Shown here in pieces: positions 4,457 to 13,863 of a DNA stretch of 20,380 nt. The notes beneath the pieces were generated by a model. The model searched no databases. It had not been told where the DNA came from and saw only the letters and a list, made by a program, of their open reading frames with translations. Source of the stretch: a virus; IMG/VR virus record IMGVR_UViG_3300006793_000384, positions 1 to 20,380 of that record; one strand, written 5' to 3'. Both the position numbers and the translations under genes were made by a program. The stretch's first letter is position 1. Each line of letters opens with the position of its first letter.

Positions 4457-4764
4457 TGCAACTGTTACATGGTTCAATGACTCACAACATACATGGTCGA
4501 AAACGCTCGACCAACGCATGGAAGAAGGCAAAACCTTACCAACCAAAGGTTAAACTAGAGGATACATATTCCCTTGGCGATGAGGGTAAAAAACATCGTG
4601 AGGCATATCCTTCTCTAAGTGAAATGGGCATGGACTATGTAACACCAGAAGATAAGTCATATAAGTTGAAGGAATCAAAAAACTATACTGTGGCAATCGG
4701 ATATAACAAAGGTACATACCAAGTTATTCCACAAGACGAAATAAAAAGTATTGGTAGAAAATAA
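4456..4764 (+). CDS. Hypothetical protein (102 aa)
   Basis: A basic 102-residue protein beginning MQLLHGSMTHNIHGRKRS, with Lys- and Tyr-rich regions and an apparent beta-rich C-terminus (YTVAIGYNKGTYQVIP). Basic N-terminus and lack of hydrophobic segments suggest a soluble, possibly nucleic-acid-binding protein; no domain is recognised. It is translationally coupled to the gene at 4253 and ends 6 nt before the late promoter of the tmRNA. Confidence 0.55.
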   Translation: MQLLHGSMTHNIHGRKRSTNAWKKAKPYQPKVKLEDTYSLGDEGKKHREAYPSLSEMGMDYVTPEDKSYKLKESKNYTVAIGYNKGTYQVIPQDEIKSIGRK

Positions 4765-4770
4765 GAAAGG

Positions 4771-4778
4771 TATAAATA
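4771..4778 (+). promoter_or_regulatory. T4-type late promoter of the tmRNA
   Basis: TATAAATA is the exact late-promoter box of T4-like phages. Taking it as -13 to -6, as in T4, transcription starts at 4784, two bases before the 5' hairpin of the tmRNA acceptor piece. That position match supports both calls. Confidence 0.75.
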
Positions 4779-4783
4779 AGAAT

Positions 4784-4847
4784 ATAGTTTGTTAATCCAA
4801 ACTGAAAACTAGGCAGGACGGGGGTGCGAATCCCCCCGCCTCCACCA
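4784..4847 (+). ncRNA. ssrA: tmRNA acceptor piece (permuted, two-piece ssrA)
   Basis: The 3' end of a tRNA-like domain is present: GGAC, a T-arm with stem GGGGG (4820-4824), 7-nt loop TGCGAAT (4825-4831) and stem CCCCC (4832-4836), acceptor strand CGCCTCC (4837-4843), A, then an encoded CCA (4845-4847). The matching acceptor strand GGGGGCG is not upstream but 141 nt downstream (4989-4995), and pairs in all seven positions, including the G3-U70 wobble recognised by alanyl-tRNA synthetase. This order (CCA end first, coding piece second) is the circularly permuted tmRNA known from alphaproteobacteria and a few other lineages. A 6-bp hairpin (4786-4791 with 4798-4803) begins at the predicted start of transcription. 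CTA and CAG at 4809-4816 can form part of helix P2 with the coding piece. Confidence 0.88.
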
Positions 4848-4988
4848 TAAGAACTGATGAGACCCACGGAGGGATGCATACCTCTTCGCAATGAGGGCAA
4901 TAGGTGATACTATCTGACCCCATTTGACCAGACGCGCAATCGAAAGTCTCTAAACCAATGTCGGTGCATTTGGGTCAGTCTTTTTGAT
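4848..4988 (+). other. tmRNA intervening segment, possibly structured
   Basis: This 141-nt stretch between CCA and the 5' end of the coding piece must be removed to give mature two-piece tmRNA. No gene fits in it. It can form long-range pairs, for example CTGACCC (4914-4920) with GGGTCAG (4972-4978), directly followed by TCTTTTT, and GAGAC (4859-4863) with GTCTC (4946-4950). The first pair plus the T-run resembles a terminator with a large loop. Confidence 0.6.
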
Positions 4989-5160
4989 GGGGGCGAATAG
5001 TATCGACTGATAGGAATAAGTGAGAGTAGAACTATCGTATGACCACGACATAGGTCAATTTAACTAACTGCAAATGATAACTCATTCGCACATGAAAACT
5101 TTGCCCTAGCGGCATAGTGTTTCGGGGTTCGGAGACACCTAGCAACAGAAGTCTCCACTT
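4989..5160 (+). ncRNA. ssrA: tmRNA coding piece (permuted, two-piece ssrA)
   Basis: The piece starts with acceptor strand GGGGGCG (4989-4995) and the D-loop region AATAGTATCGAC, which matches the tmRNA consensus ending in TCGAC. A TGACC/GGTCA helix (5040-5044 with 5053-5057) lies where pseudoknot PK1 is expected, just before the resume codon at 5070. The tag frame ends at 5117. Downstream helices are possible between 5117-5123 and 5132-5138, or between 5131-5136 and 5151-5156. The exact 3' end is not visible; 5160 is an estimate. Function: rescue of stalled ribosomes by trans-translation, using host SmpB and alanyl-tRNA synthetase. Confidence 0.87.
5070..5117 (+). other. tmRNA proteolysis tag reading frame
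   Basis: From the GCA resume codon the frame reads ANDNSFAHENFALAA then TAG. The ANDN start and ALAA end are those of alphaproteobacterial tags, and the terminal LAA is the ClpXP degradation signal. The preceding TAACTAACT resembles the usual region upstream of the resume codon. Confidence 0.87.
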
Positions 5161-5177
5161 ATTAATATGGAGAAGTT

Positions 5178-5489
5178 ATGAAAGAATTTATATACAATAG
5201 TTGGAACGCAATCTTTGACCACAAGTCAAATCCCCTGAGAAACATACCTGATATAGGTGTACGCCATATGGTGCTACAGGTTCTTGCTTGGATGTGGTGT
5301 ATTGTGTTCGCAGTAATCATAGGAAGTTTTATTGCCGGAGTGTATAGTATGATATTACATATGTTGACACTTGCCGCGATTACAGTTACAGTCGGAACCT
5401 TTGAGACCGCAAAAAGAAAACCAGAAGTGTTTCGTAGACCTTCTTCAAGTGCTACCTCTTCACGCGGATATGGTGGAGAACACGAATAA
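5178..5489 (+). CDS. Membrane protein with two helices (103 aa)
   Basis: ATG 5178 follows GGAGAAG at good spacing. A soluble N-terminal segment of about 33 residues precedes a hydrophobic stretch (about 33-72) that can form two membrane helices, followed by a basic, Ser/Gly-rich cytoplasmic tail. No family name comes to mind. The gene lies between the tmRNA and a strong terminator, so it may be read from the tmRNA late promoter. A holin-like role is possible from size and topology but unproven. Confidence 0.65.
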   Translation: MKEFIYNSWNAIFDHKSNPLRNIPDIGVRHMVLQVLAWMWCIVFAVIIGSFIAGVYSMILHMLTLAAITVTVGTFETAKRKPEVFRRPSSSATSSRGYGGEHE

Positions 5490-5513
5490 GGGTTGGTCGC
5501 CTAATAGACTCGT

Positions 5514-5535
5514 GAGGTGACATGGTTAGCACCTC
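5514..5535 (+). repeat. Hairpin downstream of the membrane gene
   Basis: GAGGTG (5514-5519) and CACCTC (5530-5535) form a 6-bp stem with a 10-nt loop, followed by TTTCCTTTC. It may be a weak terminator or an RNA stability element just before the stronger terminator at 5551. Confidence 0.45.
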
Positions 5536-5550
5536 TTTCCTTTCAAACTA

Positions 5551-5579
5551 GGGGCATCTTAATCGGTGTCCCTTTTTTT
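5551..5579 (+). terminator. Rho-independent terminator
   Basis: An 8-bp stem GGGGCATC/GGTGTCCC (two G-T wobbles) with loop TTAATC spans 5551-5572 and is followed by seven T (5573-5579). It separates the tmRNA transcription unit from the curli-type late operon that begins 22 nt further on. Confidence 0.9.
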
Positions 5580-5600
5580 GTATTTGTAGATATTAATGAG

Positions 5601-5608
5601 TATAAATA
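5601..5608 (+). promoter_or_regulatory. T4-type late promoter of the curli/cyclase operon
   Basis: An exact TATAAATA lies 22 nt after a terminator and in front of seven co-directional genes with no later promoter until 11026. With T4 spacing (-13 to -6) the first transcribed base is 5614, which is the A of an ATG, so the first gene would be leaderless. Confidence 0.68.
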
Positions 5609-5613
5609 GCGGT

Positions 5614-5895
5614 ATGGACGCAGCGTTTACATTAATAAAAGAACTCGGTTTCCCTGTCGCAATGGCAATGATAGGTGGGTTCTTTATGTTTCTTACACTA
5701 AAATATATTATGGAAGGTGTTATTGGACAGGTAAAAACCCTACATAGTATTACAGGTGCATTAGATAATCGTGTAAAGACTATGAACCACGATATGATAA
5801 GGATTGATACAACGCTATGTGTCATACTTGGATTGAGACCAGACCTTGACAGGATATCAAGGGCAGACGGAAAGAACGACGCAAGAAGAGATTGA
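5614..5895 (+). CDS. Membrane-anchored coiled-coil protein A (holin/BhlA-like?)
   Basis: The 93-residue product has one N-terminal membrane helix (about 14-36) and a charged helical tail. It aligns from its first residue with the next gene (MDAAFTLIKELGFP against MDEIVNAVKDFGFP), so the two are paralogues, and this is the main reason for choosing ATG 5614 over the in-frame ATG 5596. The late promoter overlaps the region between the two ATGs, which also favours 5614. A single short helix plus a coiled-coil tail resembles BhlA/UviB-type small holin-like proteins, but that is a weak, shape-based comparison. First gene of the curli-type late operon; the stop is 2 nt before the next ATG. Confidence 0.7.
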   Translation: MDAAFTLIKELGFPVAMAMIGGFFMFLTLKYIMEGVIGQVKTLHSITGALDNRVKTMNHDMIRIDTTLCVILGLRPDLDRISRADGKNDARRD

Positions 5896-5897
5896 TA

Positions 5898-6143
5898 ATG
5901 GATGAGATAGTAAACGCGGTAAAGGACTTTGGGTTTCCCATAGTTGCCGCAGTTGGAATGTTATATATGATTTACTTTGTATGGAAAACTATTACAGAGG
6001 AGATTGAAGCAAAGTTAGGTGACGCACATGTTACTTTAATTGGACTTATTGATAGAATAAGAATGTTAGACAACGATATTATAAGACTACAACAGAAGTT
6101 AGATACTGCTATAGAGATGAAGAGGAAAGATAACGATGAATAG
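5898..6143 (+). CDS. Membrane-anchored coiled-coil protein B (paralogue of A)
   Basis: A TTG at 5892 could extend this frame, but the ATG at 5898 aligns with the paralogue upstream and follows an AAGAAGAG purine tract. The 81-residue product has a membrane helix at about 14-35 and a long heptad-like tail (IGLIDRIRMLDNDIIRLQQK, about 48-67) that should form a coiled coil. Possible roles are a holin-like pore, a scaffold for the export channel, or an inner-membrane partner of the cyclase; the sequence does not decide. It overlaps csgF by 8 nt. Confidence 0.7.
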   Translation: MDEIVNAVKDFGFPIVAAVGMLYMIYFVWKTITEEIEAKLGDAHVTLIGLIDRIRMLDNDIIRLQQKLDTAIEMKRKDNDE

Positions 6144-6621
6144 AGATGATATACTAGATAGAATAAAATACTTCTTTGGAGGTTTGATTATTGCTTGGTT
6201 GTTGGTTGCGATACAGAGTACGAATGCCTGTGCCGCTCCTATAGACCATAAGTTCAAGTCACCTTCATTCAATGGACAGAATACATCAAGTCATTACCTA
6301 ACGATTGAGAACCAAGAACGAACTCGTAAGGATGCATTAGAACAAGAGTTAGAGGACGCATTAGAAGAAGCGGCAAGGGAAGCAGAGAATACTACCCTCG
6401 CAAGGTTTCTGAGAAATGTGGAGAGTAGGATTTATTCTACACTCTCAAGACAGTTAGTAGATAGCATGTTCGGAGAAAACCCATCAGATACAGGTGAGTT
6501 TTTTGTGGATGGTGCAGGGATTAGTTATGTCGTCGATGGCGATAAAGTGGAGTTAACAATTACAGATGAATTCGGGAATGTTACGGTCATTGTTATTCCT
6601 ATTGGGAATTTTGGTATCTAG
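6136..6621 (+). CDS. csgF: CsgF-type curli secretion accessory protein
   Basis: In bacteria CsgF is exported to the cell surface, inserts its N-terminus into the CsgG pore and couples secretion to amyloid nucleation. Here a signal anchor (about 13-34) ending in ACAA is followed by HKFKSPSFNGQN, matching the CsgF F-x-N/S-P-x-F-G/N-G start that plugs CsgG. A helical region FLRNVESRIYSTLSRQLV (about 90-107) matches the CsgF mid-helix, and the C-terminus (GEFFVDGAGISYVVDGDKVE and following DEFGNVTVIVIP) matches the family's beta-sheet. It is 161 residues against about 138 in E. coli; the extra part is an acidic Glu-rich helix. Its 3' end overlaps csgG by 56 nt. Confidence 0.87.
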   Translation: MNRDDILDRIKYFFGGLIIAWLLVAIQSTNACAAPIDHKFKSPSFNGQNTSSHYLTIENQERTRKDALEQELEDALEEAAREAENTTLARFLRNVESRIYSTLSRQLVDSMFGENPSDTGEFFVDGAGISYVVDGDKVELTITDEFGNVTVIVIPIGNFGI

Positions 6622-7387
6622 TTGTTCAAGTCTTGGTATTGAGGAAATCACTCTAAGACAAACAATAGAAGATGCCCAAGTCCAACGAGAGTTACTTTCA
6701 GAGCAACTCAAGAATGTTGGAGAACCGATTAGGAAACCTTCAGTTGCGATTTATTCGTTTACTGATAAGACAGGACAAAAGAGACAGACAAGTAGTGGTG
6801 GTACTTCATTTAGTTCTGCCGTTACACAAGCACCAGATACTTATCTGATACGCGCGTTGACTCGTGCGGGGAATGGTGAGTTTTTTAAGGTGGTTGACAG
6901 GACTCAACTTGAGTCGTTGACAAGAGAAAGACAACTCATAAGACAAACTAGAAGTTCTTATGAGGGGGAAGGTGCAAAGAAACTACCTGCTTTAACTTTT
7001 GCGGGTATGATTATTGCAGGAGGTATTGTGGGATATGACCACAGTATCGAATCAGGCGGTGATGGTGCGAGGTATCTCGGTATCGGTTCATCGCGTGAGT
7101 TTAGTCGTGACACGGTGACTATAAACATACGATTGATAAGTGTCGCGACAGGTGAAGTTTTACTTGATGTAATAACAAGTAAAACGATTTTGTCTACTGC
7201 CATTGGTGGTGACATATTTCGTTTTGTAGAGCAGGGTACTAGACTTGTTGAGGTTGAGTCTGGTGTTGCCCGCAACGAGAGTGTTTCGATTGCAACTCAA
7301 CGTGCTATTGAGACAGGGGTTTTAGAACTTATTATTCGGGGAAAAGATAAAAAGTACTGGACTTTAATAAAAGATATAAGAGGATAA
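6566..7387 (+). CDS. csgG: CsgG-type outer-membrane curli export lipoprotein
   Basis: CsgG forms a nonameric outer-membrane channel for unfolded curli subunits. The product has a lipoprotein signal (hydrophobic core, then V-S-S-C with the lipidated Cys at residue 20), and at 273 residues is close to E. coli CsgG (277). Matching segments are VAIYSFTDKTGQ, then FSSAV (E. coli FSTAV, keeping the constriction-loop Phe), ESLTRERQLIR, SGGDGARYLGIGSS, TVTINIRLISVATGEVL, TSKTIL and AIETGV. Start 6566 or 6578 both give a full signal peptide. The whole signal peptide is encoded inside the csgF 3' end in another frame. No CsgE or CsgC is present in the operon. Confidence 0.95.
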   Translation: MNSGMLRSLLFLLGILVSSCSSLGIEEITLRQTIEDAQVQRELLSEQLKNVGEPIRKPSVAIYSFTDKTGQKRQTSSGGTSFSSAVTQAPDTYLIRALTRAGNGEFFKVVDRTQLESLTRERQLIRQTRSSYEGEGAKKLPALTFAGMIIAGGIVGYDHSIESGGDGARYLGIGSSREFSRDTVTINIRLISVATGEVLLDVITSKTILSTAIGGDIFRFVEQGTRLVEVESGVARNESVSIATQRAIETGVLELIIRGKDKKYWTLIKDIRG

Positions 7388-7391
7388 TCTA

Positions 7392-8120
7392 ATGGCGATT
7401 TATAAGAATATCGTTTTTGTTATGATGTTTTTACTGCCTAGTTTTGCGTTCGCGCAGGACAATGAAATCTATATAGACCAATCTGGTGCGGGTGTCACAA
7501 TCGATATCACACAAGATGGTTCTGGTAACAAAGTGGGCGGTTCAGATACTGACTCAACTAAAATGCTAATAAGTGGTGATAATATTGCCCTTAGTATCGA
7601 TGCGGTTGGAAGTAGTAACGACGTGATTGGTAATATTGTTGGAGACAACAACAGTGTCGATTTAGATATTGTTGGTTCAACAAACGCATTCAATCTAAAC
7701 ATCGATGCTTCAGATGTATACGGTTCAACAGGAGGTTCATTTAATCTTGACCTGTCTGGTTCTGGTAATACAGTTGACCTTGATGTCGCAGGAAATGACC
7801 AAGCAAACAACGCAGACTTTGATTGGATACTTGATGGGGATTACAATACCCTTGATTTTGATATCGATGCGAATGACTACACAAGTACTATGGATGTCAT
7901 AGGTGACAACAATACTTTGACAGTAGATGTCGATGGGTATGATGGTCATAGTATGATTATAGATGGTTCGGGTAGTTATTGGGATGTCAGTATTGACCAA
8001 CAATCAACATTACAAACCGATAGTTTGGAGATAGATTTCAATGGTTCTGGAACAAGTACGACACCTGCTACGATTTGTATTAGTCAGTCTGATTCTGGTA
8101 CTGCCACAGGTTGCAACTAG
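7392..8120 (+). CDS. Secreted curlin-like acidic repeat protein (candidate amyloid)
   Basis: A signal peptide (about 1-21, ending SFAFAQ) precedes a protein built of short repeats. The first, IDQSGAGVTIDITQDGSGNK, has the curlin signature of Q-x-G-x-G-N spaced as in CsgA/CsgB. Later repeats follow G-(D/S)-x-N-x-(V/L)-x-(L/F)-D-(I/V) about every 20 residues, for example GDNNSVDLDIVG, GSGNTVDLDVAG, GDYNTLDFDID and GDNNTLTVDVDG. This fits a beta-solenoid amyloid. It is far more Asp-rich than CsgA and has very few basic residues. CISQSDSGTATGC near the end carries two Cys. Directly behind csgG, it is the obvious substrate of the pore. It overlaps the FecR-domain gene by 80 nt. Confidence 0.8.
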   Translation: MAIYKNIVFVMMFLLPSFAFAQDNEIYIDQSGAGVTIDITQDGSGNKVGGSDTDSTKMLISGDNIALSIDAVGSSNDVIGNIVGDNNSVDLDIVGSTNAFNLNIDASDVYGSTGGSFNLDLSGSGNTVDLDVAGNDQANNADFDWILDGDYNTLDFDIDANDYTSTMDVIGDNNTLTVDVDGYDGHSMIIDGSGSYWDVSIDQQSTLQTDSLEIDFNGSGTSTTPATICISQSDSGTATGCN

Positions 8121-9168
8121 TCTAGAAGATATAGGTGCTGTTGACCGAGCAGTCGGTTGGCGACAGGTAGTAAGAGAAACAAAAGAGTTAGAACCCAACA
8201 AGGGTTTTGACGTTATATCAAACGATGACCTTCGTACAGGTGACGGACGGATGCAAGTACGTTTCGTTGATGACAGTAAACTACGGATGACAGAACATAC
8301 TCGTATTGTCATTGATAATGTTGTGTTCGACAAAGACCCAAGTAAATCAGACCTTGCTATGACCTTTGCCCAAGGAACAGCAAGGTTTATTTCTGGTGGA
8401 CTTGGTAAGGTAGACAAAGAAAATATCAGACTCAAAACTCCGACTGCCACTATTGGTATTCGGGGTACAGACTTTACGGTTACTGTAGATGAGTTTGGTA
8501 AAAGTCTTATAGTATTACTTCCCGACATAAACGGAGTATCCTCTGGTGAGATTATTGTATCTACTCTGGCAGGAGAGGTGGTTCTGAATAAACCCTTCGA
8601 GAGTACAACGACTACTCTATTTGAATCACCACCTTCTAATCCTGCTATACTTGACCTATCCTTAGATATGTTAAACAACATTATGATCATAAACCCACCA
8701 AAAGAAGAACAGACCTATGATGACTTCATGGATACACTCAACGAAAAGAAGAACATAAATCCTCTTGATATTGACTTCCTTGATGAAGCACTATTAGATG
8801 AAGACGAACTTGACAGAGACTATCTGGAGTTCACGGAATTAGATGTAGACTTTCTAAATGTTGATTTCCTACAAGACCTTCTTGACGATTACTCAGATAT
8901 ACTAGATGACAAAGGTTTCCTTAGTGATGAACAAAAGGGTGGCGAGTTGAGGATTGAAGGAACCGAAGAGGGGTTTGATACTGCGACTCAGTTTAACACA
9001 ATCGTAGATGCTAAAGAAGTAAGACTACTCAGAAACGTAAATGATATCGTTGATATAAGTACTGATGTGGAACAGTCAACGAGAATAATATATGAGAGTG
9101 ACGGAATAGAGTTTGATGACATCGTAATAAATGGTGGTCAATCTACAACACTAACTATAAAGCAATAA
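8041..9168 (+). CDS. Secreted FecR-domain protein with acidic repeat region
   Basis: The N-terminus is a signal peptide (hydrophobic core FVLVSLILVLP, about 12-22), so start 8041, inside the curlin gene, is needed. A FecR-type domain follows: DLRTGDGRMQVRFVDDSKLR (about 64-83), then the hallmark TPTATIGIRGTDF (about 133-145). Such domains act in the periplasm, classically passing signals or binding surface polymers, and in bacteria they are often found beside CHASE2 cyclases. Residues about 241-290 are an Asp/Leu-rich repeat (x-D-x-D-F-L), which could bind calcium or stick to the acidic fibre. The last 60 residues look beta-rich. No transmembrane helix besides the signal. It ends 1 nt before the cyclase start. 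Confidence 0.83.
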   Translation: MVLEQVRHLLRFVLVSLILVLPQVATSLEDIGAVDRAVGWRQVVRETKELEPNKGFDVISNDDLRTGDGRMQVRFVDDSKLRMTEHTRIVIDNVVFDKDPSKSDLAMTFAQGTARFISGGLGKVDKENIRLKTPTATIGIRGTDFTVTVDEFGKSLIVLLPDINGVSSGEIIVSTLAGEVVLNKPFESTTTTLFESPPSNPAILDLSLDMLNNIMIINPPKEEQTYDDFMDTLNEKKNINPLDIDFLDEALLDEDELDRDYLEFTELDVDFLNVDFLQDLLDDYSDILDDKGFLSDEQKGGELRIEGTEEGFDTATQFNTIVDAKEVRLLRNVNDIVDISTDVEQSTRIIYESDGIEFDDIVINGGQSTTLTIKQ

Positions 9169-9169
9169 T

Positions 9170-11002
9170 ATGAAAAACTGGCACGTACTCGTAACACTGG
9201 GACTACTCTTACTAGTTAGAGTTGCTGACCCATTCATGTTAGAGAGTGCTAGGTTATCTTGGTTCGATGGATTACAGAGAGACCAAGAACCCACTAAGTC
9301 AGAACAGATTGTCCTCGTAGATATAGATGAACCTACACTGGAGAAACTAGGGCAATATCCGATACCAAGAAATATCCTCGCAGATTATATAGACGAAGCA
9401 CCAGAGGCATTAATAGGAATCAATATTTTACTAAGTGAGGAAGACAGGTTCGGAGGAGATGCGGCACTCGCCTCAGCACTATCTTGGAAAAACTCAGTAC
9501 TCGCTATAACTCCTTCAAGTAAAACAAATACAAAATACAGACCACCGACCATAGGTACAGCAACTTTTGGAGAGAAAGACGCGACTGATTTCTTGCCCGA
9601 ACTCAACGGAATGTTATTTGCGAGAGAAGAACTTCACGACGCATCGTTAGGGTATGGTACAATATCTTCATCACGAGATGTGGACGGAATACTACGACGA
9701 GCACCTCTACTTGAATACTTTGACAATAGAATATACCCCGCATTCGCATTAGATATTCTCAGAGTTGCGGCAGGAGATATCTCATACCAAATATCCACAG
9801 ATGATTATGGTATTCAGTTTGTTCGTATTCCTGCCTTCAAGAACATACCTACAGATATAAACGGAAATGTTCAGATAGCATTCTGGAATCAGTTTGAGAG
9901 ATATTCCTTTACAGATATAGACAAGATACCCGAAGGAAGTATCGCGATAGTTGGTGCTACCTTTGAGGGAAGTCCTGTTGTAACAACTCCTATCGGTAAT
10001 ATGTATCCGCACGATATTCAAGCAAACCTCATCAAGACTATGATAGATGGTGTTGTCATAACAAGACCCGATGAGTTCTTTATATACGAACTTCTATTTA
10101 CACTGATTGTATCCCTATTACTTCTCTTTGCTCTTATTAGATTACCAATAATCTGCTCCGGCGCAGGATTTATTGTGATATCTATTTTATCTGTGATGGG
10201 TGCTACGTCACTCTTCACTAAATCGTATCTATTGATTGACCCTGTGTTTCCGTTACTCGCATTACTACTTGTATTCTCACACGGAAGTTTTGTCCAGTTC
10301 TATACTCAGTTCAAATTGAAACAACAAATCAAAGCACAATTCGGAACATATCTTGACCCAAGACAAGTAGAACAACTTCAGAAAAATCCAGACCTATTGA
10401 AGTTAGGAGGAGAGAGACGCGAGATGTCTTATATGTTTACTGACATTATTGGGTTCACTCCTATATCAGAACACTATAAGAACAACGATGACCCCGAAGG
10501 ATTATGTGAACTCATAAATGAATACCTAGATGAAGTCACTCAAATCGTCTTGAATAATGGTGGTATGATTGACAAGTTCATGGGCGACTGCATAATGGCA
10601 GTATTCTCTGCACCTATTGTAATGGAGAACCACGCAGAGATGGCAGTCAAGTCTGCTATAGAGATAGAACAGAAGACCCTTGAACTCAAGAAGTTATATA
10701 AAGAACGAGGTCTACCCGATATAAATGTTGGGACAGGGGTGAATACTGGAACCGCAATCCTTGGTAACATGGGTAGTAGTACAAGGTTCGATTACTCTGT
10801 AATTGGTGATGCTGTCAATCTTGCGGCACGATTAGAAGCAACTGCGGGTCGTGGTGATTATAAAAAGTTCCCTACGATTATTAGTAGTTATACACAAGAA
10901 CTCTTACCTAAAGATATGAAGTCTATTAAGATAGGCGATATCAAAGTAAAAGGTAAAGAAGAACTCATAGAAATATTCTCCCCATATAAATTCCAAAAAT
11001 AA
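9170..11002 (+). CDS. CHASE2-domain class III adenylate/guanylate cyclase
   Basis: A 610-residue membrane receptor cyclase. Order: N-terminal helix (about 5-20), extracytoplasmic CHASE2 sensor (about 25-300), three membrane helices (about 303-322, 326-348, 352-371), cytoplasmic cyclase domain (about 415-600). All class III catalytic residues are visible: metal Asp425 in FTDIIGFT and Asp473 in DKFMGD, base-selecting Lys469 and Asp541 in FDYSVIGD, transition-state Asn550 and Arg554 in VNLAAR. The Lys/Asp pair indicates ATP, so cAMP is the likely product. It starts 1 nt after the FecR gene, so the two are probably one signalling unit. An intact receptor cyclase is very unusual for a phage. Last gene of the late operon. 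Confidence 0.94.
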   Translation: MKNWHVLVTLGLLLLVRVADPFMLESARLSWFDGLQRDQEPTKSEQIVLVDIDEPTLEKLGQYPIPRNILADYIDEAPEALIGINILLSEEDRFGGDAALASALSWKNSVLAITPSSKTNTKYRPPTIGTATFGEKDATDFLPELNGMLFAREELHDASLGYGTISSSRDVDGILRRAPLLEYFDNRIYPAFALDILRVAAGDISYQISTDDYGIQFVRIPAFKNIPTDINGNVQIAFWNQFERYSFTDIDKIPEGSIAIVGATFEGSPVVTTPIGNMYPHDIQANLIKTMIDGVVITRPDEFFIYELLFTLIVSLLLLFALIRLPIICSGAGFIVISILSVMGATSLFTKSYLLIDPVFPLLALLLVFSHGSFVQFYTQFKLKQQIKAQFGTYLDPRQVEQLQKNPDLLKLGGERREMSYMFTDIIGFTPISEHYKNNDDPEGLCELINEYLDEVTQIVLNNGGMIDKFMGDCIMAVFSAPIVMENHAEMAVKSAIEIEQKTLELKKLYKERGLPDINVGTGVNTGTAILGNMGSSTRFDYSVIGDAVNLAARLEATAGRGDYKKFPTIISSYTQELLPKDMKSIKIGDIKVKGKEELIEIFSPYKFQK

Positions 11003-11005
11003 TTT

Positions 11006-11024
11006 ACTTATTTTAAAAATAAGT
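11006..11024 (+). repeat. Inverted repeat before promoter (reverse of the one at 2938)
   Basis: ACTTATTTTAAAAATAAGT is the exact reverse complement of the repeat at 2938-2956 and lies one base before the -35 box at 11026. Placed between the cyclase stop and the next promoter, it may end the late operon or bind a regulator. Confidence 0.7.
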
Positions 11025-11025
11025 C

Positions 11026-11054
11026 TTGACTTTTTCTGCTCAATAGTATATACT
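11026..11054 (+). promoter_or_regulatory. Sigma70-like promoter
   Basis: TTGACT (11026-11031), 17 nt spacer, TATACT (11049-11054). It drives the DUF932 gene and restarts early-type transcription after the late curli operon. Confidence 0.75.
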
Positions 11055-11086
11055 ATAATTATAGTCAGAAAAGTAAAGGAAAAATT

Positions 11087-12049
11087 ATGGCACACGAACT
11101 AGAAATTATAAATGGTAAAGCACAAATCGCATATGCAGGAGATGTTCCTTGGCATGGCATGGGCACAAAGGTAGATTCAAATTTAACTCCCGCAGAGATA
11201 CAAATCGCTGCAGGTCTGGATTGGTCTGTTCAAAAAGAAACGATGACAACATCATCTGGTGTTGAAATCAAAGGAAAGAAAGCACTCGTTCGTTCGGGTG
11301 ACAACAAAGTCCTTGATGTAGTTGGCGACAACTGGAACCCTGTACAGAATGACGAAGCATTTGAGTTCTTCTCAGAGTTCGTTAACGCAGGTGATATGGA
11401 GATGCATACTGCGGGTTCACTAAAAGGTGGTAAGATGGTTTGGGCACTTGCTAAAGTGAAGGAATCATTTGACGTACTAAAGGGTGACCAAGTTGATTCA
11501 TATCTCTTGTTCTCAAATCCTCATATGTATGGTAAGTCAATCGACGTTAGGTTTACACCTATCCGAGTTGTATGTAACAATACATTATCTCTATCACTAG
11601 AGATGGCATCTAGGAATGCTGCTACCTTATCTCATCGTAAGGCATTTGACCCTAGCGAAGTAAAAGAAACTATGGGTCTTGCTCATGAGAAGTTTGCTAA
11701 GTTTAAAGAGACTGCTCAGTTCCTTGCTTCACGTCAGTTCACTGGCGAGTCTCTCATAAAGTATTACAATGAAGTGTTCCCAAGAACATATAAGGGTAAG
11801 AAAAATGTTGAGGTTAAGTCTGTTGAAGACCTAGCAGTAAATGCTAGAAAAGCATACGAACTTCTTGGTACTCAAGCAGGAGCGGAGTTCGGTAAAGGTT
11901 CTTGGTGGTCTGCGTTTAACAGCGTGACTTACTTTACTGACCATGAGATGGGTCGTAATGCAGATAGTCGTTTATCTTCCTCTTGGTTTGGTGCGAACCA
12001 AACTCGTAAGGTGAAAGCACTAGAGAAGGCAGTAGAGTTTGCGCTCTAG
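11087..12049 (+). CDS. DUF932 phage/plasmid-like protein
   Basis: The 320-residue product matches the DUF932 (phage/plasmid-like TIGR03299) family: PWHGMGTKV near residue 21, a LVRSGDN strand, LDVVGDNWNPVQNDEAFEFF (about 76-95), then VDSYLLFSNPH and FTPIRVVCNNTLSLSL (about 156-171). The family occurs in many phages and plasmids, usually among DNA-metabolism genes, but its activity is not established to my knowledge. The start has TAAAGGAAAAATT before it, the standard leader here. It is alone between two promoters, so it has its own transcript. Confidence 0.88.
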   Translation: MAHELEIINGKAQIAYAGDVPWHGMGTKVDSNLTPAEIQIAAGLDWSVQKETMTTSSGVEIKGKKALVRSGDNKVLDVVGDNWNPVQNDEAFEFFSEFVNAGDMEMHTAGSLKGGKMVWALAKVKESFDVLKGDQVDSYLLFSNPHMYGKSIDVRFTPIRVVCNNTLSLSLEMASRNAATLSHRKAFDPSEVKETMGLAHEKFAKFKETAQFLASRQFTGESLIKYYNEVFPRTYKGKKNVEVKSVEDLAVNARKAYELLGTQAGAEFGKGSWWSAFNSVTYFTDHEMGRNADSRLSSSWFGANQTRKVKALEKAVEFAL

Positions 12050-12721: not shown

Positions 12722-13120
12722 ATGACACACGTAAACTATGATTGTCCCGAAAAGTTTGTTCCTTATATCAACGGTTGTCTTGATGTTCTGGGTCTATGGA
12801 AATATCCTGACCTAGAACTGACAGTCGTGATGGAACCTACTATTACAGGTGGGGCACATGGATACTGTTGGGGAGATACCGAAGAAGTAGAAGTTGAAAT
12901 CGCTACTGACAAAGTTGCGATGGACGAAGTATGCCTAACGATTGCCCACGAACTTATTCATGCGAAACAGTATGCGTCTGGTGTACTGGACGAAATGAAC
13001 TGGAAAGGTAAATGTTACAGAGATACTAAGTATACAGAGTTACCTTGGGAAGTAGAAGCATACAATAAAGAAGAAGAAGTGATGCGTAAAGCAATAGAGA
13101 TTATGAGAAGGAAAATATGA
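12722..13120 (+). CDS. HExxH zinc metalloprotease-like protein
   Basis: The 132-residue protein contains H76-E-L-I-H80 in a helix (LTIAHELIHAKQY), a classic gluzincin/SprT-like zinc site, and a downstream P-W-E110-x-E-A segment that probably gives the third ligand. It would be a small soluble peptidase or a zincin used in DNA-protein repair or host takeover; the target is unknown. The gene starts 3 nt after the upstream stop and overlaps the KdsB-like gene by 4 nt (ATGA), so it sits in one early operon behind the promoter at 12088. Confidence 0.75.
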   Translation: MTHVNYDCPEKFVPYINGCLDVLGLWKYPDLELTVVMEPTITGGAHGYCWGDTEEVEVEIATDKVAMDEVCLTIAHELIHAKQYASGVLDEMNWKGKCYRDTKYTELPWEVEAYNKEEEVMRKAIEIMRRKI

Positions 13121-13863
13121 TGCAGCAGAAAGTGATAGGACTTATACCCGCAAGATGGGAATCAAGTAGGTTTCCTGGAAAACCACTAGCAGAGATAGAT
13201 GGTATACCGATGATACAAAGAGTATATGAGCAATGCCTTATGTCAAAAAAACTCTATTCAGTAATAGTCGTTACGGATAATGTTGCTATTCATCAATATT
13301 GTAGAGATAACTTTATGGAAGTTGTTATGGTAGATGATGATGTTGAAACAGGTACAGATAGGATTGCTCTCGCAGTAAAGAATATGCACGGAGTTAGATA
13401 CTCAGATATCTTTATCAATATACAAGGTGACGAACCTCTTATCAATCCTGAAGCAATAGACAAGATGATTGATACCTTTGACCACGAGATTGGTGTATCG
13501 GTTGCGTACAGAGTAATGACAGACTATAGTAAAATGAATGATAGAAACGTGACCAAGGTTGTTATAAATGACAATGGTTATGCTATGTTTTTCTCAAGAC
13601 TTCCTGTATCGAAGTTACAGTCACTAGGTTTGTTTGCATTCAACGCAAGTACACTTCGTAACTTTGCTAGAAAAGATGACTCTCCTGACACTACCGAGAG
13701 TATTGAGATGAGAAGGTTCCTTGAACGAGGGCAACTTGTAAAGATGGTAGAGGTAGAAGATTATGGTTTGGCGGTTGATATACCAGAAGATATAGAAAAG
13801 GTTGAAGACTTTCTAAAATTCAAAAAAGAAATAAAAGAGAAAATGCTTGACTTACAAGAGTAA
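13117..13863 (+). CDS. kdsB: KdsB-like CMP-sugar synthetase, shortened
   Basis: KdsB activates KDO with CTP for lipopolysaccharide. Family motifs are clear: IPARWESSRFPGKPL (about 10-24), GTDRIALA (about 88-95), NIQGDEPLI (about 107-115), VTKVVINDNGYAMFFSRLP, GLFAF, and VDIPEDIEKVEDF near the end. Compared with E. coli KdsB the stretch between FSR and the GxYxF strand is about 20 residues shorter and the conserved R-H-x-G-I-Y is replaced by Q-S-L-G-L-F, a region that lines the sugar pocket. The sugar may therefore not be KDO. Phage copies are thought to alter host surface sugars. A promoter for the next gene lies within its 3' end. Confidence 0.85.
   Translation: MMQQKVIGLIPARWESSRFPGKPLAEIDGIPMIQRVYEQCLMSKKLYSVIVVTDNVAIHQYCRDNFMEVVMVDDDVETGTDRIALAVKNMHGVRYSDIFINIQGDEPLINPEAIDKMIDTFDHEIGVSVAYRVMTDYSKMNDRNVTKVVINDNGYAMFFSRLPVSKLQSLGLFAFNASTLRNFARKDDSPDTTESIEMRRFLERGQLVKMVEVEDYGLAVDIPEDIEKVEDFLKFKKEIKEKMLDLQE

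Follow-up and report, generated by a model that had tools for sequence, protein, structure and literature searches.

A phage operon that joins a curli-type export module to a putative FecR/CHASE2-cyclase envelope sensor

The viral sequence analyzed here, a 20,380-base IMG/VR record from a marine T4-like phage, referred to as the window, carries seven + strand genes that occupy positions 5614–11002, with all frames open. In order, they encode two small membrane proteins (TM1 and TM2), CsgF, CsgG, a curlin-like protein, a FecR-domain protein, and a CHASE2 adenylate cyclase. The anatomy of this set is firm: the open frames and the matches to Pfam and family profiles bear out that the same-strand arrangement of the original prediction is real, and the coordinates confirm that neighboring genes overlap, by up to 80 bases, or are separated by five bases or fewer (junctions 5895/5898 or 5892, 6143/6136, 6621/6566, 7387/7392, 8120/8041, and 9168/9170). 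The sequence comparisons also support the predicted combination, in which an export pore and a curlin-type substrate for it stand beside a secreted FecR-domain protein and a cyclase whose active site is intact. The chances are about even that the operon serves late export and that its FecR/CHASE2-cyclase pair senses the state of the fibre or of export.

The paper PMC9599517 is presumably that of Wittmers et al. from 2022, and is called so below. It describes a pelagiphage module in which CsgF, CsgG, CsgA/B, FecR, and adenylate cyclase occur together in phages from the Podoviridae and Myoviridae, and which is expressed in metatranscriptomes (PMC9599517). The same order is present in the GenBank records of the Pelagibacter phage HTVC008M and of phage Melnitz, and the complete set is thus not undescribed, as had been supposed. 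FecR is interpreted there as a regulator of iron and the cyclase as one of curli, of the Escherichia coli type (PMC9599517). A 2020 paper on pelagimyophages listed CsgF and CsgG along with a curli-associated protein, and CsgA/B was thought to be missing (PMC7029224). Melnitz was said in 2022 to be without CsgA/B (PMC9004378); however, its GenBank record (MZ577096) names two curlin-repeat proteins. Sibling capture, superinfection defence, uptake, and lysis timing are already in print as functions (PMC9004378, PMC7029224, PMC9599517), and the list of possible functions in the original prediction is speculative, with much of it already published. Relative to the papers that could be searched, the new elements are the curlin-like tail of the FecR protein, the distribution of cysteine pairs among the curlins, the clade with one curlin, the absence of any recognized cAMP receptor, and the correction of a kinase label.

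A T4-type late promoter motif, TATAAATA, was found by a motif scan at positions 5601–5608 (+) and is conserved at the start of the operon in relatives. Within the window alone, four copies were seen against 2.1 expected, which is not significant. When related sequences are counted separately, 27 of the 81 distinct upstream sequences have the motif near the first gene, whereas its density within the operons would predict about 2.3, and this conservation supports the proposed late promoter. From it, we infer late timing of the operon. The motif ends five bases 5′ of the start codon (ATG 5614), and likewise in several relatives; judged by the spacing in T4, the first message would be leaderless or nearly so. 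The upstream boundary of the operon may be marked by a terminator-like hairpin with a T run at 5550–5573 (+). The pattern scan detected three terminator-like sites against 3.1 expected from shuffles, which is chance level, and the hairpin is therefore argued from its placement. The candidate downstream boundary is a sigma-70-like promoter at 11026–11054 (+), a consensus match at 10 of 12 positions, ahead of the next gene, which encodes a DUF932 protein. The sigma-70 scan of positions 4700–11500 is uninformative on internal promoters, with 19 sites found and 19.7 in shuffles.

Profile matching and transmembrane prediction indicate that TM1 (5614–5895, +) has one transmembrane helix, at residues 11–29, followed by a predicted coiled or helical tail; alignment to the PHROG profile makes ATG 5614 a likelier start than position 5596. 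TM2 (5898–6143, +; possible TTG start at 5892) also has one transmembrane helix and is a paralogue of TM1, both belonging to PHROG 18771. It weakly matches the holin family PHROG 4898 (phrog_4898, E 1.2e-4). In the phage collection, TM1 homologues are confined to phages with this operon, which suggests that TM1 and TM2 are dedicated parts of it, perhaps stand-ins for the CsgE gate. The label "histidine kinase" given to this position by Wittmers et al. is rejected because the kinase domain is absent: neither HisKA nor HATPase was matched in the two proteins, which are 81–93 amino acids long with a single transmembrane helix, or in their homologues from HTVC008M and Melnitz.

CsgF, the curli assembly factor (6136–6621, +), has a signal peptide and matches PF10614 with an E-value of 1.5e-14 and a score of 54.8 bits, the cut-off being 25.8. 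Its N-terminal F-x-x-P-x-F-x-G segment aligns weakly (E 0.87) to CsgF of known structure. CsgG (6566–7387, +) is a lipoprotein predicted to form the outer-membrane pore for curli export. It matches PF03783 (2.7e-45) and solved CsgG (2e-39), and the lipobox cysteine 20 is invariant among 20 phage sequences. The gate protein CsgE was found in none of four phage genomes.

The gene at 7392–8120 (+) encodes a secreted repeat protein that resembles curlin and has a pair of cysteines near its C-terminus, as judged from its family profile and a structure model. Its own match to the Pfam curlin repeat is marginal (E 0.048) and below the cut-off; its identity as a curlin is argued from the family, since 23 of 32 homologues match PF07012, at best with 8.6e-6, and a search with the family profile reaches 8c50, a curlin-repeat protein of known structure (2e-7). 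The canonical QxGxxNxxxxxQ pattern is rare among these proteins. The AlphaFold model of the protein from the window is all-beta with good confidence (pLDDT 82.7, pTM 0.81), and a Foldseek comparison of it with the PDB gave no significant fold match. In almost all operons, one curlin carries two cysteines close to its C-terminus: the pair is present in 38 of 40 single curlins and, in phages with two curlins, in all 52 downstream but only 5 of 45 upstream proteins. The single curlin therefore bears the feature otherwise found on the second one. In a CsgG tree built by a quick method, the 52 single-curlin loci, including the window, form one clade (SH-aLRT 97) nested within the two-curlin phages, which is consistent with one loss.

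The FecR-domain protein (8041–9168, +) has an N-terminal signal peptide, and FecR is the only domain matched (PF04773, 7e-12). Approximately the last 45 residues form a curlin-like unit, a likeness that is based on motif counts and profile comparison. The pattern, exemplified by IFIQDGISNVIKVNGGSDSVITITQ from relative L033, resembles a curlin repeat. The motif hydrophobic-x-hydrophobic-x-Q ends 73 of 74 distinct FecR tails, 35 of 45 tails of downstream curlins, and 32 of 61 tails of upstream curlins, and is never found in the last 12 residues of CsgF, CsgG, the cyclase, or the TM proteins. The profile of the last 45 residues scores 27.4 against that of the second curlin; none of 40 column shuffles exceeds 13.7, and other proteins of the operon reach 9.7–15.9. 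The HHalign probability for the same pair is only 53%, only seven columns align to the profile of the first curlin, and Pfam Curlin_rpt gives no match to the tail even at an E-value of 5. The unit is evidence of moderate strength for docking of the FecR protein on the curlin or for export of the two together. The structure model of the FecR protein is poor (pLDDT 65.9), and residues 213–308 are too weakly modeled for use. Neither a cytoplasmic anti-sigma part nor an adjacent sigma factor gene was found for the FecR protein of the window. A Fec-type iron regulator is thus excluded by the signal peptide together with the absence of the anti-sigma N-terminus and of a neighboring FecI-type sigma gene.

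The last gene (9170–11002, +) encodes a CHASE2 sensor (PF05226, 2e-34, 119.7 bits) fused to a class III adenylate cyclase (PF00211 Guanylate_cyc, 5.8e-17), predicted to reside in the inner membrane. Transmembrane helices are placed at residues 6–24, 305–323, and 352–370, with the N-terminal CHASE2 domain between transmembrane helices. All catalytic residues are present: the two metal-binding aspartates D425 and D473, the purine-binding K469 and S543, and the transition-state N550 and R554. Of 136 phage homologues, 134 retain them all; in the two exceptions, Melnitz and L075, serine replaces the transition-state asparagine. Domains that bind cyclic nucleotides were found in only 4 of 99 SAR11-family genomes, some of them incomplete, and in none of five phage genomes. 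They are so scarce that cAMP would be without a recognized receptor in these bacterial and phage genomes, and its action through CRP is unsupported there. One of the few cyclase matches in SAR11-family genomes, G001, is itself a phage contig. CHASE2 genes are present in 67 of 142 alphaproteobacterial genomes. A FecR gene lies directly upstream of CHASE2 in 2 of 24 alphaproteobacterial loci and divergently in one, a count that is a lower bound because the loci are short (about 4 kb); no curli genes were found in the short flanks of 30 such loci. In Burkholderia, a published biofilm operon has the gene for a LysM-FecR protein ahead of that for a CHASE2 histidine kinase (PMC5192318). By analogy with these bacterial neighbors and the published operon, it is reasonable that the FecR protein may be the ligand of CHASE2.

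A megablast search with the entire window found no match among phage records, and protein searches were therefore needed. Relatives were collected by two IMG/VR searches, by CsgG and by the cyclase, and their loci were annotated with profiles. Among 36 CsgG-anchored loci with sufficient flanks, CsgF, curlin, and FecR are present in all and the cyclase in 35; among 28 cyclase-anchored loci, CsgG, CsgF, and FecR are present in 26 and curlin in 27. Pairwise dN/dS is approximately 0.03–0.3 in nearly all comparable pairs for all genes, curlin included, and the operon is thus under purifying selection. The contigs of relatives reach 144 kb, and the three longest ones tested (107.8, 144.2, and 144.4 kb) carry the T4 gp23 major capsid gene. 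The nearest long relative (L004, 107.8 kb, CsgG 98% identical) has a gp23 that is 69% identical to that of phage C48C1, the closest, 63% to that of Melnitz, and 60% to that of HTVC008M; C48C1 is absent among phages with CsgG or cyclase matches. The comparison of gene order that had been proposed as a check shows the same order in HTVC008M, Melnitz, and the IMG/VR loci, and the alternative of a bacterial chimera fails because of this synteny across phages and the gp23 genes on the large contigs tested. All phage CsgG proteins form one group relative to the nine bacterial sequences used in the tree. Among the 80 CsgG-nearest loci in genome assemblies, FecR or the cyclase adjoins CsgG only on contigs with the phage version, and never in clearly bacterial curli loci. 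Acquisition of the whole module from a bacterium is therefore rejected, and the combination is a phage assembly as far as this sample of 80 loci shows. Several of the phage-version contigs are misbinned into unrelated metagenome-assembled genomes.

According to the preferred explanation, the late operon would provide both a curli-type (type VIII) export machine and an envelope sensor to go with it. The outer-membrane pore would be formed by CsgG together with CsgF. The curlin-like beta-repeat protein, directed by its signal peptide, would cross the inner membrane by the Sec pathway and leave through the CsgG pore. The FecR protein, with its own signal peptide and curlin-like end, most likely binds the curlin as a tether, cap, or co-exported subunit. 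CHASE2, facing the periplasm, would read the FecR protein, and the cytoplasmic cyclase would produce cAMP according to ongoing export or fibre assembly. TM1 and TM2 would belong to this machine specifically, as its components in the inner membrane, possibly in place of the CsgE gate, which is missing. The observed part of this explanation comprises gene content, order, conservation, the intact active site, and the statistical resemblance between the FecR tail and curlin; from these, we infer the docking on curlin and the sensing. The explanation is supported by the co-occurrence of the genes, purifying selection, the FecR tail, the bacterial pairing of FecR with CHASE2, the intact cyclase, and the conserved late promoter. 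Against it stand the silence of Curlin_rpt on the FecR tail, the curlin model without a fold match, the poor FecR model, the scarcity of cyclic-nucleotide-binding domains, and infections by Melnitz, in which clumping was absent from cytograms and electron micrographs (PMC9004378). As a first guess, the benefit may be surface display that alters adhesion or superinfection. A more specific version, which we regard as rather unlikely, is a viral export checkpoint, in which FecR would dock on curlin in transit through CsgG and signal through the CHASE2-cyclase, with cAMP acting on an unrecognized target in hosts that have no known cAMP receptors.

It is unlikely that FecR and the cyclase are a general bacterial stress sensor that has been carried along and is functionally separate from the export genes. 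Such a sensor would fit the frequency of CHASE2 in alphaproteobacteria, where none of the 30 examined loci has curli genes in its short flanks and a few have FecR beside CHASE2; however, the resemblance of the FecR tail to curlin speaks against it, as does the adjacency of FecR and the cyclase to CsgG exclusively on phage-version contigs, which indicates that the linkage belongs to the phage and is maintained. The proposal that the operon times virion release, with CsgG, with or without CsgF, opening the outer membrane and TM1/TM2 acting like holins, has been put forward for Melnitz (PMC9004378) and agrees with the conserved late promoter and the weak holin match of TM2. It is nevertheless improbable, since it leaves unexplained the curlins, FecR, and cyclase, which are under purifying selection and co-occur almost constantly. 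Moreover, CsgG retains its lipobox and a full match to its family, and TM1 homologues accompany only this operon, unlike a general phage holin. Nutrient uptake, in which a CsgG pore without the CsgE gate would stay open and admit larger molecules for a starved host under regulation by FecR and the cyclase, has been suggested previously (PMC7029224, PMC9599517) and is in line with the absence of CsgE from the four phage genomes. We consider it very unlikely, because the conserved curlins would have no role in it and the FecR protein is not a Fec-type iron regulator.

In streamlined ocean bacteria, the phage module, which is large and strictly ordered, would supply an export system that the host lacks. 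The data suggest that the FecR protein and curlin are physically linked and that the cAMP signal has no recognized receptor, contrary to the published reading of FecR in terms of iron and of the cyclase as an E. coli-type regulator. The window has the genes and order of the type VIII secretion module of Wittmers et al., CsgF-CsgG-CsgA/B-FecR-(CsgA/B)-adenylate cyclase on one strand; however, its clade has one curlin instead of two, and the domain content of its upstream proteins is not that of histidine kinases. HTVC008M (KC465899, 6900–13807) has orthologues of all seven genes in the same order, with the main ones 35–55% identical, and differs in a second, larger curlin of 441 amino acids between FecR and the cyclase. 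Melnitz (MZ577096), a phage of Methylophilales/OM43, also shares the gene order and has a second curlin at that position, while its cyclase has the serine substitution and a C-terminal extension. Bacterial curli operons contain CsgG and CsgF homologous to those of the phages; they differ in CsgE, which was not found in the phages, and in FecR, the CHASE2-cyclase, and TM1/TM2, none of which neighbors CsgG in bacteria. The Burkholderia BiofilmReg operon (PMC5192318) differs in its histidine kinase receptor and response regulator, the LysM domain on its FecR protein, and the absence of curli genes, but like the window it places a secreted FecR-domain protein beside a CHASE2 receptor.

Five bases separate the late promoter motif from the start codon at the start of the operon (window 5601–5616), and the same distance is found at the operon start in the related contigs L004, L005, L011, L086, and L101. 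Provided that the T4 spacing applies, this five-base distance would predict leaderless late messages. The plus-strand coding sequences of CsgF and CsgG overlap by 56 bases (6566–6621), and those of curlin and FecR by 80 bases (8041–8120), where the same DNA encodes both the C-terminus of curlin and the signal peptide of FecR.

The operon starts approximately 450 bases downstream of a permuted, two-piece tmRNA gene of the alphaproteobacterial type, which encodes the tag ANDNSFAHENFALAA and lies at 4748–5159 (4755–5208 according to ARAGORN); its Rfam scores are 90.5 bits for RF01849 and 95.1 bits for RF04321. A tmRNA gene is also present in the near relatives L004, L005, L006, and L008, and in the phage Melnitz (PMC9004378); searches of L007, L010, L011, L085, L086, and L088 did not find one. 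Nine operon-bearing phage contigs (L164, L165, L166, L168, L169, L171, L173, L178, and L195) have been placed in MAG bins labeled Pelagibacter, Rhodobacteraceae, Flavobacteriales, Pirellulales, Sphingobacteriales, and Planctomycetaceae.

Elsewhere in the window, a cytidylyltransferase (13117–13863; PF02348, 3.7e-36), similar to CMP-KDO synthetase, is possibly a gene for cell-surface modification.

The FecR and cyclase frames are both split in L004 (5413–8369), as is the cyclase frame in L008 (10565–12383); these interruptions are likely sequencing or assembly errors. In L075, the genes for the small membrane proteins TM1 and TM2 (9809–10428) lie on the opposite strand, downstream of the operon rather than at its start. 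The L075 cyclase lacks the transition-state Asn, which is likewise missing from the cyclase of Melnitz.
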